The translations under genes and the position numbers were made by a program. DNA of 64,000 bases, from assembly GCF_000430665.1 (NCBI RefSeq), contig NZ_AUML01000006.1, positions 62,001 through 126,000 on the forward strand, read 5' to 3'. Below, piece by piece: positions 31 through 60,868 of the stretch (its first letter is position 1; each line of letters opens with the position of its first letter). The stretch is from Aquimarina muelleri DSM 19832 (GTDB taxonomy: Bacteria > Bacteroidota > Bacteroidia > Flavobacteriales > Flavobacteriaceae). The notes below the pieces were generated by a model, which worked only from the letters and a program-made list of their open reading frames with translations, did no database searches and was not told the DNA's origin.

Positions 31-1377
31 ATGTCAGAATACACACCAATCATCATTGCTATAACAACAATGATAATTTCAATTATCGCTGGTTTTTTTA
101 TAGGTAAATATGTAATAACATTACAGTATAAGAGCGAAAAAAGTACTGTTGATGAAAGAGCTAATCAATTATTAGTACAATTTAACGAATATAAAAACAC
201 TTCAGAAAAACAAGTATCTGAAATAACTAAAGAACGAGAAGAGATTCGTAGAGAAAAAGATTTTCTTAGTACAGAACTTACTCGCCGTAATTCGGAATAT
301 GAAAATTTGCTCCTAAAAAATAAAGAGCAAAAAGGTGAAGTTGAAAAACTCCAAGAAAAATTCACTAAAGAATTTGAAAACCTTGCTAATAAAATTCTCG
401 AAGAAAAATCTAATAAATTTACAGAGCAGAATAAAGAAAATATCAAAAACATTCTAAATCCTTTACAAGAAAAGATCAATACGTTTGAAAACAGAATTGA
501 ACAAACTCATAAAGAAAGTATTGATTACCATGCCGCTTTGCGCCAACAAATAATTGGTCTTAAAGATCTTAATGAGCAAATGAGTAAAGAGACAACCAAC
601 CTAACCAAAGCATTAAAAGGAGACAGTAAAATGCAAGGTAATTGGGGAGAACTGGTACTGGAACGTGTATTAGAAAAATCTGGATTAGAAAAAGATCGAG
701 AATATTTTGTGCAGCAAAGTTTTACAAAAGAAGATGGTCAAAGAGTTATGCCAGATGTAGTAATTTATCTGCCAGACAATAAAAAAATGATTATTGACTC
801 TAAAGTAACACTTACTGCTTATGAACGATATGTAAATGAAGAAGATGAGACCTTACAAGCTGTCCATCTTAAAGAGCATATCACCTCATTAAAACGCCAT
901 GTTGACCAGTTGTCTGAAAAAAATTATCAAGATTTATACGATATTGAATCTCCCGACTTTATACTAATGTTTGTTCCTATTGAACCTGCATTTGCAATCG
1001 CCATAAATCAGGATAATAAATTATATAACCAAGCATTTGAAAAAAACATAGTAATTGTTACCCCTTCTACCCTACTTGCTACCTTGCGAACTATTGATAC
1101 TATGTGGAACAATGAAAAACAACAACGTAATGCTATCGAAATTGCTCGTCAAGCAGGAGCTTTGTATGATAAATTTGAAGGACTGGTTAAAGACCTTATG
1201 GGTGTTGGTAAAAAAATTGATGATACAAAAAAAGATTATTCGGCAGCAATGAATAAATTAGTAGAAGGCAAAGGAAACTTAATTACTAGTGTAGAAAAAT
1301 TAAAAAAAATGGGAGCTAAAGCTAAAAAATCTTTACCCGAAGCTATTATTAACAGAGCTATAGAAGAAAACGAATAA
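31..1377 (+). CDS. rmuC: DNA recombination protein RmuC
   Basis: RmuC-family protein of 448 aa. One N-terminal membrane segment (about residues 5-27) is followed by a long charged coiled coil (about 35-150) and then the RmuC nuclease-like core, with the family motifs MQGNWGE (around 202) and DSKVTLTAYERY (around 257). RmuC proteins limit inversions and other rearrangements at repeats, and the core resembles restriction-endonuclease folds. Biochemical activity is poorly defined. The length is normal for the family. It is followed at short spacing by two small membrane-protein genes on the same strand, possibly cotranscribed. The ATG is supported by the -7 element just upstream. Confidence 0.93.
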   Translation: MSEYTPIIIAITTMIISIIAGFFIGKYVITLQYKSEKSTVDERANQLLVQFNEYKNTSEKQVSEITKEREEIRREKDFLSTELTRRNSEYENLLLKNKEQKGEVEKLQEKFTKEFENLANKILEEKSNKFTEQNKENIKNILNPLQEKINTFENRIEQTHKESIDYHAALRQQIIGLKDLNEQMSKETTNLTKALKGDSKMQGNWGELVLERVLEKSGLEKDREYFVQQSFTKEDGQRVMPDVVIYLPDNKKMIIDSKVTLTAYERYVNEEDETLQAVHLKEHITSLKRHVDQLSEKNYQDLYDIESPDFILMFVPIEPAFAIAINQDNKLYNQAFEKNIVIVTPSTLLATLRTIDTMWNNEKQQRNAIEIARQAGALYDKFEGLVKDLMGVGKKIDDTKKDYSAAMNKLVEGKGNLITSVEKLKKMGAKAKKSLPEAIINRAIEENE

Positions 1378-20920: not shown

Positions 20921-22750
20921 ATGAACTATTTTAAACAAATTCTTCGCTTTGCGAAACCATACAAATCTTATGGAGTCTTAAATATTATATGTAATATTTT
21001 TTATGCTCTATTTAGCACATTATCATTTTTAGCCTTAATCCCTGTGTTAAAAGTTTTATTTAATACCGAAAAAGAAATTATATATTATGAACCTGTTTGG
21101 GATGGCTTAAAAAACTCAAAAACATATTTAACCGACAGTCTTAATTGCTTTATAACCGATAACATGGCAACACAAGGTAAAATGCCTGTTCTTACTTATA
21201 TGATTGTTGGTATTATTGCTGTTTTTATGCTTAAAAACCTTTTTAATTATCTAGCTATGTACTTTATTACATTTTTACGTAATGGAGTATTAAAAGATAT
21301 TAGAAATGAGCTTTATGAAAAATCTGTTAGTTTACCATTATCTTTTTTCTCAGAAAAACGAAAAGGAGATACCATGGCAAGGATTTCCACCGATGTATTA
21401 GAAATACAACATTCTTTTCTTTCTATTTTAGAATTAATTGTGCGAGAACCCCTTACTATAGTGTTTACTCTTGCTGCAATGCTCTTTTTAAGTGCTAAAT
21501 TAACTTTATTTGTTTTTATATTTATTCCTGTATCTGGATTTTTAATCTCTTTAATTGGTAAAAAATTAAAAAAACATTCCGATAAAGTACAACAAGAGCA
21601 AGGTTTTTTTCTTTCTATAGTCGAGGAAACTTTAGGAGGTCTAAAAGTTATTAAAGGATTTAATGCTGAAGGTATATTTGGCGAGAAATTTAAAGAATCT
21701 ACATCCAGGTTTAATCAATTTTCTAACACCCTACTTAATAGACAAAATTTAGCCTCTCCTACCAGTGAATTTTTAGGAATTTGTGTAATTTCAGTATTAT
21801 TATGGTACGGAGGAAAACTTGTATTTATTGATGGAACTTTAGAAGCCGAAATGTTTTTAGCTTATATTGGATTAGCTTATAATATACTAACTCCTGCTAA
21901 GGCTATTTCTAAAGCTAATTATGGTGTAAAAAAAGGAAATGCAGCTGCAGAACGCGTGTTAGAGATATTAAATACTCCTTCTCCTTTACAGGATAAACCT
22001 GATGCTATTGATAAAAAAGAGTTTAATTCTGACATTACCATAGAGAATATTTCCTTTAAATATGAAGACGAATATGTACTAAACAACTTTTCTTTAAAAG
22101 TACCTAAAGGAAGTTCTGTAGCTCTTGTTGGACAATCTGGAAGTGGTAAATCTACCATCGCTAATCTAGTTACCCGTTTTTATGATGTAAATAAAGGGGC
22201 TATCAAAATAGATAATTTAGATATTAAGGACTTAACCAAACATTCTTTAAGAAACTTAATGGGTCTGGTAACTCAAGACTCTATATTATTTAATGATTCT
22301 ATTAAAAATAATCTATTAATAGGAGAGCCTAATGCATCTGATCAAGAAATAATTAATGCATTAAAAGTAGCTAATGCCTGGGAATTTATAAAAGATCTAC
22401 CCGCTGGTATAGAAACAAATATTGGAGATAGTGGTAACAAACTTAGTGGGGGGCAAAAACAACGTTTATCTATAGCCAGAGCTGTTTTAAAAAACCCTCC
22501 AATCATGATTTTGGACGAAGCTACTTCAGCTTTAGATTCTGAAAGCGAAAGATTAGTGCAGTCTGCATTAGAGAACATGATGAAAAATAGAACTAGTATT
22601 GTTATTGCACACAGACTTTCTACTATACAAAACTCTAATTTAATCGTTGTAATGCAAAAAGGTGAAATTGTAGAACAAGGTACTCATGACGAGCTTATTA
22701 TAAAAGATGGTGTCTATCAAAAACTAGTAACCATGCAGTCATTTGAATAA
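20921..22750 (+). CDS. MsbA-like ABC exporter (fused permease-ATPase)
   Basis: 609 aa. An ABC type-1 exporter membrane domain (about 15-340, six helices) is fused to an ATPase domain (about 365-605) with Walker A GQSGSGKST, signature LSGGQKQR, Walker B IMILDEATSAL and the H-loop IAHRLSTI. It probably works as a homodimer that flips lipid or a drug across the inner membrane. MsbA (lipid A flipping) is the closest functional class, but the substrate is inferred. A strong terminator follows. Confidence 0.94.
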   Translation: MNYFKQILRFAKPYKSYGVLNIICNIFYALFSTLSFLALIPVLKVLFNTEKEIIYYEPVWDGLKNSKTYLTDSLNCFITDNMATQGKMPVLTYMIVGIIAVFMLKNLFNYLAMYFITFLRNGVLKDIRNELYEKSVSLPLSFFSEKRKGDTMARISTDVLEIQHSFLSILELIVREPLTIVFTLAAMLFLSAKLTLFVFIFIPVSGFLISLIGKKLKKHSDKVQQEQGFFLSIVEETLGGLKVIKGFNAEGIFGEKFKESTSRFNQFSNTLLNRQNLASPTSEFLGICVISVLLWYGGKLVFIDGTLEAEMFLAYIGLAYNILTPAKAISKANYGVKKGNAAAERVLEILNTPSPLQDKPDAIDKKEFNSDITIENISFKYEDEYVLNNFSLKVPKGSSVALVGQSGSGKSTIANLVTRFYDVNKGAIKIDNLDIKDLTKHSLRNLMGLVTQDSILFNDSIKNNLLIGEPNASDQEIINALKVANAWEFIKDLPAGIETNIGDSGNKLSGGQKQRLSIARAVLKNPPIMILDEATSALDSESERLVQSALENMMKNRTSIVIAHRLSTIQNSNLIVVMQKGEIVEQGTHDELIIKDGVYQKLVTMQSFE

Positions 22751-22777
22751 TAAAATCATTTTACATTATATATACAA

Positions 22778-22812
22778 GAGGGTGTTTGATTTTTCAAACA
22801 CCCTCTTTTTTA
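22778..22812 (+). terminator. terminator of the ABC exporter transcript
   Basis: A 12-bp perfect stem (GAGGGTGTTTGA and its complement) with a TTTT loop is followed by six Ts. It stands 28 bases after the stop. Confidence 0.92.
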
Positions 22813-22844
22813 TCATTTCAATTAAGTTTATAACTTAAAATTAA

Positions 22845-23005
22845 TACGATTTACGGATGAGAATTGCGTATAAATAATTGCAAAGGTTTTTCGCTAGATT
22901 GATGAATCAAATTAAAGAATAGCCATAGCTATTGTTTCATTTTATGAAGAAAATATAGTAGAAAAAGAGTGCGATTATATGCGAGATTTTTATTCGTAAA
23001 TCGTA
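22845..23005. repeat. MITE-like element 1 (161 bp, inverted ends)
   Basis: TACGATTTACG at 22845-22855 is repeated inverted and perfectly as CGTAAATCGTA at 22995-23005. Internal stretches also pair (GCGTATAAATAATTGC and related sequence near 22870 and 22965). There is no coding sequence. It has the size and ends of a miniature inverted-repeat element, or it may encode a folded RNA. No target duplication was verified. Confidence 0.5.
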
Positions 23006-23007
23006 TA

Positions 23008-23160
23008 ATACCATTTGTAGTTTGAGTTTACTGGAAAAAAAAGTTTGAGCCAGACCCGAATCTGGTATTAAGCATAGCAGGGCTACGGTTTATTTTCATT
23101 CTAATACTTGAGGCAAAAAAAGAACATTTTATTACGATAAATTCAAATTGTAAATGGTAT
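23008..23160. repeat. MITE-like element 2 (153 bp, inverted ends)
   Basis: The 23-base end starting ATACCATTTGTAGTTTGA at 23008-23030 recurs inverted at 23138-23160 with four mismatches. It is noncoding and abuts element 1. It is probably another miniature inverted-repeat element. Confidence 0.55.
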
Positions 23161-23289
23161 AAACCTTAGACTAACAATTTACCATATACCAAAACAGAAA
23201 TAATCTTTTACAAAATCTTCTGAATTTCATAAAATTACTTTAACAAGATAGATTTTAATAAATAATGAAAAGAAAATTAAAGAAGAAAT

Positions 23290-23421
23290 AAAAAAGAGTG
23301 CTTTCGCACTCTTTCTTTTCACACAAATCATCTTAATTTAGGGGCTTACTCTAAAAATTAAAACTCACTTTTATAAAAAACTTTCATCTTGGGGGAAATG
23401 AAAGAACTCAATCATTATTAC
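23290..23421 (-). ncRNA. candidate small RNA, copy 1
   Basis: Minus-strand unit. The -7-like element TATCTTTA (23433-23426) predicts a start near 23421. A hairpin with stem CTTTCAT/ATGAAAG and a UUCCCCCAAG loop follows, then the single-stranded stretch AAGCCCC, and finally the terminator AAAGAGTGC GAAA GCACTCTTT plus a T-run (about 23291-23312). Length about 130 nt. A 14-codon reading frame from 23415 is also present. Confidence 0.6.
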
Positions 23422-23560
23422 ACTGTAAAGATACAATTTATTTTTAATAAACCTAATAAAAAATGTATTTTATCTAAAAAATATGTTTTTAAACTTATAC
23501 AAGCTAATTAAACACATTTAAATGTAGTATAATTCTTACTTATGTGTTTTAAATACGACA

Positions 23561-23693
23561 AAAAAAAGAGTGCTTTCGCACTCTTTCTCTTCACACAAAT
23601 CATCTTAATTTAAGGGCTTACTCTAAAATTAAAACTCACTTTTATTAAAAAACTTTCATCTTGGGGGAAACGAAAGAACTCAATCATTATTAT
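23561..23693 (-). ncRNA. candidate small RNA, copy 2
   Basis: Same layout as copy 1. The -7-like element is at 23705-23698. The hairpin's A-U pair has become a G-U pair (CTTTCGT), which keeps the stem. The terminator keeps the GAAA tetraloop. This copy has the longest frame of the set: 25 codons from 23687 to 23610. Confidence 0.6.
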
Positions 23694-23846
23694 AGTGTAA
23701 AGATACAATTTATTTTTAATAAACCTAACAAAACATGTATTTTATCTAAAATACATGTTTTTCATCATCGAAAAATAAACTAAAATCATTAAAAAGTAAT
23801 CTAATTCTTACTTTTTAATGATTTTCATATAGTATATCTATAAAAA

Positions 23847-23982
23847 TAAAAAAAAGAGTGCTTTCACACTCTTTTCTTTCACACAAATCATCTTAATTTA
23901 GGGGCTTACTCTAAAAATTAAAACTCACTTTTATTAAAAAACTTTCATCTTGGGGGAAATGAAAGTACTCAATCATTATTAC
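23847..23982 (-). ncRNA. candidate small RNA, copy 3
   Basis: The -7-like element is at 23994-23987. The C-rich-loop hairpin is identical to copy 1. The terminator's closing C-G pair is replaced by U-G, so the stem is still able to form (AAAGAGTG...CACTCTTT). Confidence 0.6.
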
Positions 23983-24121
23983 TCTGTAAAGATACAATTT
24001 ATTTTTAATAAACCTAATAAAAAATGTATTTTATCTAAAAAATATGTTTTTAAACTTTTAAAACTATCTGTACATTACAAAAATGTAATCTAATTCCTAC
24101 TTTTTGTGTTTATCTTAAAAA

Positions 24122-24253
24122 CAAAAAAGAGTGCTTTCACACTCTTTTTCTTCACACAAATCATCTTAATTTAGGGGCTTACTCTAAAAATTAAAACTCA
24201 CTTTTATTAAAAATTTCATTTTGGGGAAAATGAAAAAACTCAATCATTATTAC
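24122..24253 (-). ncRNA. candidate small RNA, copy 4
   Basis: The most diverged copy, with the -7-like element at 24265-24258. Its hairpin TTTCATTTT CCCC AAAATGAAA has two changes that lengthen the stem (a U-G pair becomes U-A, and a new U-A pair forms), while the short reading frame is shifted. This favours selection on RNA structure over a peptide. Confidence 0.6.
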
Positions 24254-24392
24254 ACTGTAAAGATACAATTTATTTTTAATAAACCTAATAAAAAATGTAT
24301 TTTATCTAAAAAATATGTTTTTAAACTTTTAAAACTATCTAAACGTTACAAAAAAGTAATCTAATTCCTACTTTTTATATTTGTATTAAAAA

Positions 24393-24526
24393 CAAAAAAG
24401 AGTGCTTTCACACTCTTTTTCTTCACACAAATCATCTTAATTTAGGGGCTTATTCTAAAAATCAAAACTCACTTTTATTAAAAAACTTTCATCTTGGGGG
24501 AAATGAAAGTACTCAATCATTATTAC
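24393..24526 (-). ncRNA. candidate small RNA, copy 5
   Basis: The -7-like element is at 24538-24531. The hairpin is as in copies 1 and 3, and the terminator as in copies 3 and 4. This is the first copy that a polymerase entering from the right would meet; upstream lies the divergent ECF sigma gene. Confidence 0.6.
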
Positions 24527-24729
24527 TCTGTAAAGATACAATTTATTTTTAATAAACCTAATAAGAAATGTATTTTATCTGAATTATACGGTTTTAATCT
24601 ATTTAAAATAATATTCCTACAAAATTCCTACAAATAATAATTTTACCCTAATTAAACCATTTTCTCGTACTTTAGTCTAAAAAGAAAATGAAGTATAGAA
24701 TACTTTAATAACTAAAATCAATTTTACCT

Positions 24730-25272
24730 TTGAATACTCAAAATGAACAAGACTTACTAACAGCTTTAAAATCTGATATAAATTCTTCTTTTAGTAAACT
24801 TGTTACTTTATATCAAGAAAGGTTATACTGGCATATAAGAAACATCGTGAAAAATCATCATGATACAGATGATATATTACAAAATGTATATATTAAAGTA
24901 TATAATAACATTAATAATTTTAAAGGAGATAGTAAACTGTATTCATGGTTGTATCGTATAGCTACAAATGAATCTATAACTTTCTTGAATAAAAAAGCGA
25001 AAAAAGATAATATTACTAATGAAGAATTAAGTCAAAAATTGATTCAAAACTTAGAGGCTGATGTGTACTATGATGGTAGCCAGATAGAACTAAAGCTACA
25101 AAAAGCTATTGCTACTTTGCCTCAAAAACAACAAATAGTATTTAATATGAAATATTTTCAAGAATTAAAATATAAAGAAATATCAGAAATATTACAAACT
25201 AGTGTAGGTGCTTTAAAAGCATCTTATCATATCGCTACAAAAAAAATTGAAGAATTTTTAAAAAATGATTAA
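24730..25272 (+). CDS. ECF-type RNA polymerase sigma factor
   Basis: 180 aa. Sigma region 2 (about 20-90, with HDTDDILQNVYIKVYNNI and KLYSWLYRIATNE) and region 4 (about 120-175, with LPQKQQIVFNMKYFQELKYKEIS and a helix-turn-helix) are clear. It directs RNA polymerase to a small regulon, normally held in check by an anti-sigma factor. It heads an operon with the next two genes, the first of which is the likely anti-sigma. The start is a TTG at 24730; there is no ATG in frame before region 2. This TTG also lies inside the string TACCTTTG, which looks like a -7 element. Confidence 0.92.
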   Translation: MNTQNEQDLLTALKSDINSSFSKLVTLYQERLYWHIRNIVKNHHDTDDILQNVYIKVYNNINNFKGDSKLYSWLYRIATNESITFLNKKAKKDNITNEELSQKLIQNLEADVYYDGSQIELKLQKAIATLPQKQQIVFNMKYFQELKYKEISEILQTSVGALKASYHIATKKIEEFLKND

Positions 25273-25303
25273 ACCTTTTTACTTAAAATAAGTCTTACTA
25301 ACA

Positions 25304-25834
25304 GTGAAAAAAGATAAATTACATAAAAACAATGGTGGGTTTAAAGTACCCGAAGAATATTTTGAAAACTTAGAGAGTCGTCTTTCAAAAAAAATACCTT
25401 TTAAAACTGAAAAAAAACTTCTTTCAAAAACAAAATATTCTTCAGGATTTAAAATTCCAGATGAGTATTTTGTAGGTTTTGAAAATAAAATACTTCGAAA
25501 AGTTAAAGAAACTAAATCTAAAAGAAAAGTGATTTCTTTAATCACTAGAAAAAATATTTTATATTTTTCTAGTATTGCAGCAATGATTGCTATTATAATA
25601 TCTCTATCTATTAGCAAAGAATCTGAACTAAGCTTTAATGACATTACAGTTGCTGATATTTACACCTATTTTAATGAAGAAAACATAGAACTTAGTACTA
25701 TTGAAATAGCTGCATTACTCGAAAGTGATGTTAGTTACACTGAAACATTAGAAAAAGAGTTAATTAATGAAGATGTAATTTTAGATTACCTATCTAGGGG
25801 ATATCTAGATGATGACATTATATCTGTAGAATAA
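25304..25834 (+). CDS. probable membrane-bound anti-sigma factor
   Basis: 176 aa, GTG start. The cytoplasmic N-terminal part holds two copies of a short motif, GFKVPEEYFENLE (about 12-24) and GFKIPDEYFVGFE (about 46-58), then a single membrane segment (about 90-110) and an acidic C-terminal part. The topology and its place directly after an ECF sigma gene are those of anti-sigma factors, although I see no zinc-binding or FecR domain. Function is inferred from context. Confidence 0.75.
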   Translation: MKKDKLHKNNGGFKVPEEYFENLESRLSKKIPFKTEKKLLSKTKYSSGFKIPDEYFVGFENKILRKVKETKSKRKVISLITRKNILYFSSIAAMIAIIISLSISKESELSFNDITVADIYTYFNEENIELSTIEIAALLESDVSYTETLEKELINEDVILDYLSRGYLDDDIISVE

Positions 25835-25843
25835 ATTAAAAAC

Positions 25844-26287
25844 ATGAAAAAAATAATATTACTTATTTACGTTATTTTTATTTATAGCGGAATCTTTGCC
25901 CAAAATGGATCTAGAGAAAAGATAAAAGCTTTTAAAATAGCTTATATAACAGAAAAATTGAACCTATCAAGTAAAGAGGCACAAGAATTCTGGCCTATAT
26001 ATAACAATCATGAAGAAATAATTGAAAATCTTAGGAAAGAAAAACGTAAATTAATGAAAGCTTTAAAAGAAGCTGATGATTCTGAAAACATAACAGATAA
26101 ACGTGCCGAAGATTTTATAAATCAATATCTTGAATCAGAAGAAAAAAAATCAAAAGCAAAGAAAAATTTAATCTTAGATTTAAAAAAAAGTATTCCAAAC
26201 AAAAAAATTATAAAGCTTATCAAAGCAGAAAGAGATTTTCATAAACGCATGTTGGACAGAATTAAAGGGCACAGAAAAGAACACTAA
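25844..26287 (+). CDS. small exported helical protein (Spy/CpxP-like)
   Basis: 147 aa with a signal peptide (about 1-19, ending IFAQ) and an all-helical, highly charged mature part containing EKLNLSSKEAQEFWPIYNNH. This opening is found in flavobacterial sensor-like proteins encoded behind ECF sigma operons. It ends the three-gene operon and probably acts in the periplasm, sensing stress or chaperoning. The Spy/CpxP relation rests on shape rather than clear motif identity. Confidence 0.78.
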   Translation: MKKIILLIYVIFIYSGIFAQNGSREKIKAFKIAYITEKLNLSSKEAQEFWPIYNNHEEIIENLRKEKRKLMKALKEADDSENITDKRAEDFINQYLESEEKKSKAKKNLILDLKKSIPNKKIIKLIKAERDFHKRMLDRIKGHRKEH

Positions 26288-43574: not shown

Positions 43575-43902
43575 AGTAACTTCAGGTCTTCCACTAGAGC
43601 CCCAGAATGATTCACAGTAACTTTTGATGTTCCACTAGAACCCCAGAACCATCCACAGTAACTTTTGATATTCCACTAGAGCCCCAGAATGATCCACAGT
43701 AACTTTTGATGTTCCACTAGAACCCCAGAACCATCCACAGTAACTTTTGATATTCCACTAGAGCCCCAGAATGATCCACAGTAACTTTTGATGTTCCACT
43801 AGAACCCCAGAACCATCCACAGTAACTTTTGATATTCCACTAGAGCCCTAGAATGATCCACAGTAACTTTTGATATTCCACTAGAACCCCAGAATGATCC
43901 AC
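43575..43902. repeat. tandem array, eight copies of a 41-bp unit
   Basis: Eight head-to-tail 41-bp copies, each beginning AGTAAC. Two variants alternate (GATGTTCCACTAGAACCC and GATATTCCACTAGAGCCC), giving an 82-bp higher-order period. Each unit contains the inverted repeat TTC-CACTA-GAA. The array is about 44% GC, richer than its surroundings, with stops in the frames, so it is noncoding. It fills most of the 469-bp gap 43464-43932. Confidence 0.92.
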
Positions 43903-43932
43903 AGCAAGTTTGGTTCCTTCTCTATTCTATTA

Positions 43933-60404: not shown

Positions 60405-60490
60405 AGAACAATCAATCACAATAAAAAATCTTTGCTTTTTGATAAAAACCCTATGAATAGTAAAAATACACTCCCCTAGTTGAAAAAAAC

Positions 60491-60868
60491 ATTAACTATC
60501 ATGGCGAAAACAGCAACTATCTTGTAGAAATCGTTAGCTATCATGAAGAAATCATCAACTAAGCTGGAGAAAGTGTTAACTATCATGGCGAAAACAGCAA
60601 CTATCTTGTAGAAATCGTTAGCTATCATGAAGAAATCATTAACTAAGCTGGAGAAAGTGTTAACTATCATGGCGAAAACAGCAACTATCCTGTAGAAATC
60701 GTTAGCTATCATGAAGAAACCATTAACTAAGCTGGAGAAAGTGTTAACTACCATGGCGAAAACAGCAACTATCCTGTAAAAAGTATTAACTAATTTATGG
60801 AAAGCGTTAACTAAATCCCTAAAATTATTTGCTAGTTTAGCACAAGAGTTAAATCTATAACTAAAATC
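60491..60868. repeat. 21-bp tandem array, about 18 copies, 84-bp higher-order period
   Basis: The unit GTTAACTATCATGGCGAAAAC and variants of it repeat every 21 bp from 60491 to 60868. Four distinct 21-mers form an 84-bp block that recurs three times nearly exactly; further copies then degenerate rightwards. Twenty-one bases is two helical turns, so the GTTAACTA and GAAA parts face the same side of the DNA. The minus strand is open for 92 codons only because the unit is a multiple of 3. The region before it (60405-60490) shows nothing else. Confidence 0.9.

Follow-up and report, generated by a model that had tools for sequence, protein, structure and literature searches.

In the flavobacterium Aquimarina muelleri DSM 19832, the region between an msbA-like transporter gene and an ECF-type sigma factor gene very probably holds five paralogous noncoding small RNA (sRNA) genes, every one of them equipped with a promoter and a terminator; their transcripts are predicted from the DNA. 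The place of this array between the two genes, shared with a short RNA in other genera, is new here; no description of the Aquimarina RNA was found in the literature covered, that of open papers outside their supplements. The array lies in the window, the whole stretch of 64,000 nucleotides analyzed (contig NZ_AUML01000006.1, positions 62,001 to 126,000), and coordinates given without a locus name are counted from its first letter.

The five-unit array and its predicted RNA

Five repeated units of about 136 nt, each with a promoter, two C-rich hairpins, and a terminator, occupy positions 23286-24526 on the minus strand. As originally predicted, they form a five-copy tandem family: the repeats are direct, with unit-to-unit spacings of 272, 289, 271, and 273 bp, and Tandem Repeats Finder places them at 23277-24608 (period 271, 4.8 copies). 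Every unit reads, in order, a -7 box, a hairpin (H1) with a C-run in its loop, a second hairpin (H2), the linker TTAAGATGATTTGTGTGAA, and, last, a terminator carrying a T-run. The -7-like element reported earlier, TATCTTTA, occurs once in each of the five units. The terminators were likewise recovered in a scan of 22700-24800, where five of six terminator-like sites are those of the array on the minus strand (shuffle mean 0.3); the sixth, at 22776-22807 on the plus strand, lies outside it. With up to three mismatches allowed, the array hairpin sequence matches the window 5 times, compared with a mean of 0.00 over 100 shuffles. Bit scores in the following feature list are from R1, a covariance model with 40 model sequences.

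20921..22750, plus strand: msbA-like ABC transporter gene, conserved neighbor 3ʹ of the array (Pfam ABC_membrane, ABC_tran; synteny)
23286..23421, minus strand: sRNA unit 1, R1 153.0 bits (predicted transcript, start site at about 23420)
23558..23693, minus strand: sRNA unit 2, R1 151.4 bits
23846..23982, minus strand: sRNA unit 3, R1 143.7 bits
24119..24253, minus strand: sRNA unit 4, R1 143.2 bits
24390..24526, minus strand: sRNA unit 5, closest to the sigma factor gene, R1 147.8 bits (a match by construction, because unit 5 is among the 40 model sequences)
23426..23433 (unit 1), 23698-23705, 23987-23994, 24258-24265, and 24531-24538 (units 2-5), minus strand: -7 element TATCTTTA
23381..23404 (unit 1), 23653-23676, 23942-23965, 24213-24236, and 24486-24509 (units 2-5), minus strand: hairpin H1, with CCCCAA in the loop
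23330..23364 (unit 1), 23602-23635, 23890-23924, 24163-24197, and 24434-24468 (units 2-5), minus strand: hairpin H2, with tip AAGCCCC (AAGCCC in unit 2)
23318..23336 (unit 1), 23590-23608, 23878-23896, 24151-24169, and 24422-24440 (units 2-5), minus strand: conserved linker TTAAGATGATTTGTGTGAA, its 5ʹ part overlapping H2
23290..23315 (unit 1), 23560-23587, 23848-23875, 24123-24148, and 24394-24419 (units 2-5), minus strand: terminator
23463..23475 (unit 1), 23735-23747, 24024-24036, 24295-24307, and 24568-24580 (units 2-5), minus strand: proximal upstream repeat AGATAAAATACAT
23483..23494 (unit 1), 23755-23766, 24044-24055, 24315-24326, and 24588-24599 (units 2-5), minus strand: distal upstream repeat
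24730..25272, plus strand: ECF-type sigma factor gene, divergent conserved neighbor (Pfam Sigma70_r2, Sigma70_r4_2; synteny)

Comparison across the genus supports the original proposal that the units are genuine noncoding RNA genes. In an alignment of 147 copies (139 distinct) from loci of genomes matched by BLASTN, 98.8% of paired cells in the distinct rows are able to pair, compared with 47-69% when the partners are slid. Changes on both sides are seen in 20 of 29 pairs, whereas shuffles average 5.7 and none of 500 reached as high. By element, and with the alignment fitted to a model that holds H1 and the terminator without H2, such changes affect all 11 terminator pairs, 7 of 8 H1 pairs, and 2 of 10 H2 pairs; H2 is nearly invariant, so that its support comes mainly from conservation and less from covariation. 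Homologues without a conserved hairpin and terminator had been named as evidence against the proposal; over the 147 copies, H1 is paired in 97.9% of cells and the terminator in 99.6%. Differences within the array that leave pairing intact were also borne out by reading the alignment, namely an A-U to G-U change in copy 2, a U-G to U-A change in copy 4, and a C-G to U-G change at the terminator in copies 3-5. Moreover, fold z-scores lie between -4.6 and -6.5 in all six copies folded (two from the window and four from relatives). Identity between loci on sampled pairs is 0.83 in the transcript and 0.55 in the spacer, compared with 0.54 for shuffled spacers.

C-runs recur in nearly all copies of this RNA. 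Runs of at least three Cs number exactly two in 121 of 131 distinct copies, one in 7, and none in 3, whereas shuffled copies average 0.15 runs each. In the lowest-energy folds of the 121, a hairpin loop contains the entire first run in 114 and the entire second run in 4, and the mean unpaired probabilities are 0.98 and 0.69, respectively, as if, in these folding models, the second run had three of its four Cs open and the remaining C paired at the loop end. The AAGCCCC stretch, described earlier as unpaired, is actually the tip of H2.

Additional elements surround the array. Upstream of each unit stands GTAGGAAT (or GTAAGAAT), on the minus strand at 24613-24631, 23532, 23804, 24093, and 24364; this type of element is doubled, 11 bp apart, before unit 5 and is also present before the first unit in some relatives. 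A 29-bp inverted repeat with 79% complementarity (22844-22872 / 22978-23006) lies between msbA and the array. The sigma factor gene and two small genes downstream of it (176 and 147 aa; no Pfam match) span 24730-26287 and occur together in most of 29 loci from other genera; the two small genes could encode an anti-sigma factor and a periplasmic protein. The window has two more tandem arrays, at 43575-43911 (periods 41/82 bp) and 60486-60792 (periods 21/42/84 bp).

Distribution in Aquimarina and a probable single-copy relative

BLASTN found the RNA in 32 of the 56 genomes searched, own genome included, and all 32 are Aquimarina. Under strict filters, which were applied in both the genus and the family search, R1 detected the RNA in 65 of 66 Aquimarina genomes, with 1-12 copies where present; all 58 good-quality genomes were positive. 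The same model gave no match in 394 non-Aquimarina genomes of the family, in a search in which three Aquimarina genomes were all positive. Copies incomplete at one or the other end of the profile were dropped, which left 139 of 148 in one count and 140 in the promoter and repeat-pair counts. Copies outside the main array lie at several kinds of site, including one where an E1 dehydrogenase gene is accompanied by TonB-receptor, FecR, and ECF-sigma genes and another where the neighbors are DUF456, DUF58, and BlaR1-like genes.

The earlier remark that no known family was recognized holds. At gathering score, the window yielded no Rfam match, and the array's 14 weak matches do not include FopS; the only matches in 16 related loci were 8 tRNAs, all in one locus, with none to an sRNA family. 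A known Rfam family was rejected on these grounds. An element borne by phages, plasmids, or viruses was likewise rejected: one unit, used as query, has no match in phages or plasmids, and a 20-base core has none in viral contigs.

A sibling RNA was seen in three genomes, G018, G010, and G009 (L075:5222-5345(-), L081:1982-2100(+), and L060:4411-4524(+)). It shares the linker and terminator and has a different, G-rich 5ʹ part (GGTTTTRAAGNGGNGTTTTT) plus a CTAAC..GTTAG hairpin. The 3ʹ module of the sRNA seems exchangeable, and the sibling's G-run could pair with the C-loops. A pattern search for this G-rich class returned mostly chance matches, with 3 real members among 8 loci examined. Separately, the own genome has an isolated linker-like stretch with one mismatch (L178, G000:C4:13689-13707), and no C-run hairpins were seen around it by eye.

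The same intergenic region holds a shorter RNA in other genera of the family. A sigma-factor search of 80 family genomes gave 29 non-Aquimarina loci as best matches, in 27 of which msbA was within reach; the two loci left out for want of msbA within reach were L185, which nonetheless has a match to the short-RNA model R2, and L204. In 19 of the 27 msbA-sigma intergenics, a shorter RNA with a CCCC hairpin and a terminator is encoded opposite to the sigma factor gene, in the same orientation as in Aquimarina. A further intergenic (L211) has a CCCU variant and another (L202) is ambiguous; CCCC hairpin and terminator are absent from the other 6 of the 27 (L189, L196, L200, L203, L212, and L213). 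By reading, the terminator loop also carries CCC in 9 of 20 short RNAs. One non-Aquimarina locus, L208, has two tandem short RNAs at this place (953-1040 and 1205-1292, minus strand).

R2, built from 20 short RNAs without Aquimarina, matched 116 of 397 family genomes and 80 of 237 genera, with one copy in 115 genomes and two in one. All 30 matches inspected, of 117, are placed between msbA and the sigma factor gene. Among 196 genomes of the order, many of them from the same family, 3 matches were found, all within the family. In the short RNA, H1 has both-side changes in 6 of 6 pairs, compared with 2.8 expected (1 of 500 shuffles as high), and 24 cells changed on both sides, compared with 6.4 in shuffles; over the short-RNA alignment, pair types are no more numerous than in shuffles (79 of 500 as high). 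The invariance of CCCC among the 20 short RNAs is circular because these sequences were picked for CCCC.

The array in Aquimarina likely descends from this single-copy sRNA of other Flavobacteriaceae, as far as sequence comparison can tell. Because neither R1 nor R2 recovers the other form of the RNA, the case for descent is built on place, promoter, and first hairpin. R2 gave no match in the own genome; its best E value was 0.38 against an Aquimarina unit and, within the window, 0.73. Promoters and first hairpins were compared in 49 distinct intergenics, 27 from the best sigma-factor matches and 22 picked by R2, after 8 loci repeating a genome had been dropped from 57. An Aquimarina profile of promoter plus H1 reached E < 0.001 in 18 of the 49 (10 of the 27), with a best value of 5.7e-11 and reversed controls of at most 1.4 bits; in 31 of the 49, E was above 0.001 or no match was found. 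Added to the shared place, orientation, and upstream repeats, these matches make common descent likely but not proven, and H2 and the linker would then be an Aquimarina addition.

Promoters, targets, and competing explanations

A promoter scan with the Escherichia coli consensus found no excess (12 found, compared with 14.7 in shuffles), which is the expected outcome if the promoter is of another type. Across 140 copies, anchored on TAnnTTT, a TTTGG box stands 18 nt before the -7 box; the units of the window read TTAGG. Farther upstream are two direct repeats, roughly ATCGATNAARTGYA and CGATNAAATGCA, at a start-to-start distance of 20-21 bp. In the 49 intergenics, this repeat pair was found in 37 (17 of the 27 and 20 of the 22 picked by R2), compared with 0.04 expected and none in reversed sequence, and it is confined to intergenics with CCCC. 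The proximal repeat lies 43-44 bp ahead of the -7 box in 28 of 34. The pair is degenerate in Aquimarina, where a looser pattern was found in 95 of 140 copies, compared with 1.7 expected.

Such a layout points to response regulators with LytTR domains. According to PMC4847170, LytTR sites consist of two repeats of 9-11 nt with a spacer of 11-13 nt and have no common consensus, and E. coli YpdB, a LytTR protein, binds a direct repeat of GGCATTTCAT. The repeat pair upstream of the sRNA promoters, with its start-to-start distance of 20-21 bp, fits this arrangement, and the complement of the repeat contains GCATTTNAT; because LytTR sites lack a common consensus, the match is one of layout only. The own genome has 15 LytTR matches, which are candidate activators. 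On this sequence pattern, the case for LytTR-type control of the sRNA promoters is evenly balanced.

Targets were sought among 637 ORFs in 800 kb of one relative. The original prediction called exposed C-runs typical of RNAs that bind G-rich targets or proteins; start regions gave no support to G-rich targets in the one relative whose G-runs were counted. GGGG is rarer at starts, with 12 in 637 start windows compared with 31 in upstream windows and 51 and 49 in coding windows, and TTGGGG occurs 2 times at starts, compared with 3 upstream and 9 and 5 in coding windows. Pairing energies of the loops and linker against the 637 start regions yielded single candidates and no clear target set. Blocking of start sites by the C-loops as a general mode of action was rejected on both counts; single targets of that kind may exist. 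The linker is antisense to start contexts such as CACAAATCATG, and AAATCAT occurs 26 times at starts, compared with 12.6 for permutations (0 of 60 as high). When the linker is taken whole, its match to start contexts is equalled by 47 of 300 shuffled versions and is only suggestive, a lead. ACAAATCATG was counted 22 times in the own genome and its reversed control 14 times; four of the 22 sites (L291, L293, L297, and L298) resemble gene starts, all with signal-peptide-like N termini by eye.

The explanation favored here, with moderate confidence, is a LytTR-activated, base-pairing sRNA of LhrC-like build that would have gained a hairpin and copies in Aquimarina. A LytTR-type response regulator would bind the upstream repeat pair and activate the sRNA promoters, and the several copies would add dose quickly. 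The sRNA would then act in trans, pairing with mRNAs through its exposed C-rich loops and conserved linker. Considered by itself, and by analogy, base pairing could prove right or wrong about equally well.

The strongest rival is titration of a protein, in which the C-rich loops would sequester an RNA-binding protein (for example, one with RRM or KH domains) and copy number would set the dose. CsrB-type RNAs sequester an RNA-binding protein in this manner. The repetition of C-runs within each RNA and over the copies fits such a role, as do the variation of Aquimarina stem bases with pairing kept while the C-runs stay, and the lack of enrichment of G-rich start regions, the expected partners of the C-loops. 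However, each RNA has two C-runs only, the candidate protein is hypothetical, and loops alone would account neither for the conserved linker nor for an H2 stem that hardly varies. Titration is accordingly a possible, though rather unlikely, account of the array.

Similarly tentative is another reading, in which a family-wide, LytTR-controlled sRNA with an exposed CCCCAA loop would act via a protein or via G-rich sites off the starts. It would not work by covering Shine-Dalgarno sequences, the mode of known C-rich sRNAs, since these bacteria hardly use them. Aquimarina would have added the second C-rich hairpin and the start-antisense linker to give a dose-tunable array, with one genus showing the stepwise growth of an sRNA from one copy into a multi-seed array.

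It is improbable that the sRNAs belong, as an RNA arm, to the regulon of the neighboring ECF sigma factor. The constant neighborhood of the main array would suit such a link, but the sRNA promoters are of the sigma-A type and sRNA copies are present at other places as well. Furthermore, an ECF-like box (AAAC-N14-20-GTCT) is found on the strand of the sigma gene in 41 of 49 intergenics, compared with 1.9 expected; with the box on that strand, the sRNA promoters appear to fall outside the sigma regulon. Less probable still is that the repeats act as DNA, with operator sites titrating a regulator and the transcripts as by-products; every unit does have the upstream repeat pair, but the hairpin and terminator pairs covary and conservation lies in the transcribed part, not in the spacer.

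Least probable of all, to the point of near dismissal, is that the units are genes for small peptides. An early ATG in the window copies opens a frame, MIE[FY]F[HR]FPQ..., that by reading is open in all five units, and among the 12 commonest outcomes a frame of 13 or more codons from this ATG is kept by at least 25 copies. Of 131 distinct copies, however, 44 read Met-Ser-stop from the early ATG and 35 lack an ATGA in their first 20 nt; the median length of the longest ATG ORF is 9 aa, with 25 aa or more in 4 copies. Peptide genes were rejected, as no reading frame is conserved among these copies.

Comparison with known systems

The sRNAs of Flavobacteriia have received little study. The one described here can be found and tested in tractable relatives, given how strongly comparison supports it, its fixed genomic position across many genera, and the type of activator proposed for it. 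A LytTR-activated, base-pairing sRNA would show the use of C-loop sRNAs in bacteria that hardly use Shine-Dalgarno sequences, as well as the growth of a single sRNA gene into an array.

RNAIII, under AgrA, is a regulatory RNA behind a LytTR-type site and also encodes a peptide. It is longer than the array units, and no sequence relation is claimed. The Rfp RNAs of Flavobacterium psychrophilum resemble the array RNA, in a comparison by description only, as conserved structured sRNAs of the same family of bacteria; according to PMC9723704, the third stem-loop of Rfp18 is predicted to pair with protease mRNAs.

FopS (RF04319) is likewise a multicopy family of paralogous sRNAs and comes from the same phylum as Aquimarina. 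PMC11697453 counts 14 FopS members in Bacteroides thetaiotaomicron, alongside six in another family, and describes canonical sigma-A-type promoters, a Rho-independent terminator, and an RNA made up of a single-stranded 5ʹ stretch and a terminator hairpin. Multicopy sRNA arrays had been called rare in Bacteroidota; multicopy families are known there, FopS being one, though no tandem array is described in the accessible text of PMC11697453. In contrast to FopS, the array units have two hairpins before the terminator. Membership in FopS was rejected given these two hairpins and the lack of an Rfam match, the FopS model scoring 15 bits on the opposite strand of one locus (L187), compared with a gathering score of 56.

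LhrC, for which an Rfam family exists, is matched by the Aquimarina array in being multicopy with redundant C-rich loop motifs, the second C-run of the array RNA being only partly open. According to PMC4132741, LhrC1-5 of Listeria monocytogenes comprise five copies, each with its own promoter, whose expression needs the LisRK two-component system; lapB mRNA is bound by a CU-rich motif that recurs, redundantly, in the two hairpin loops and in a single-stranded stretch, and UCCC motifs are discussed as binding Shine-Dalgarno sequences. The Aquimarina array differs in that it belongs to another phylum, with no sequence relation seen and no Rfam match, and in that G-runs are not enriched at starts in one Aquimarina genome. 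The likeness to LhrC is one of architecture, not of descent.
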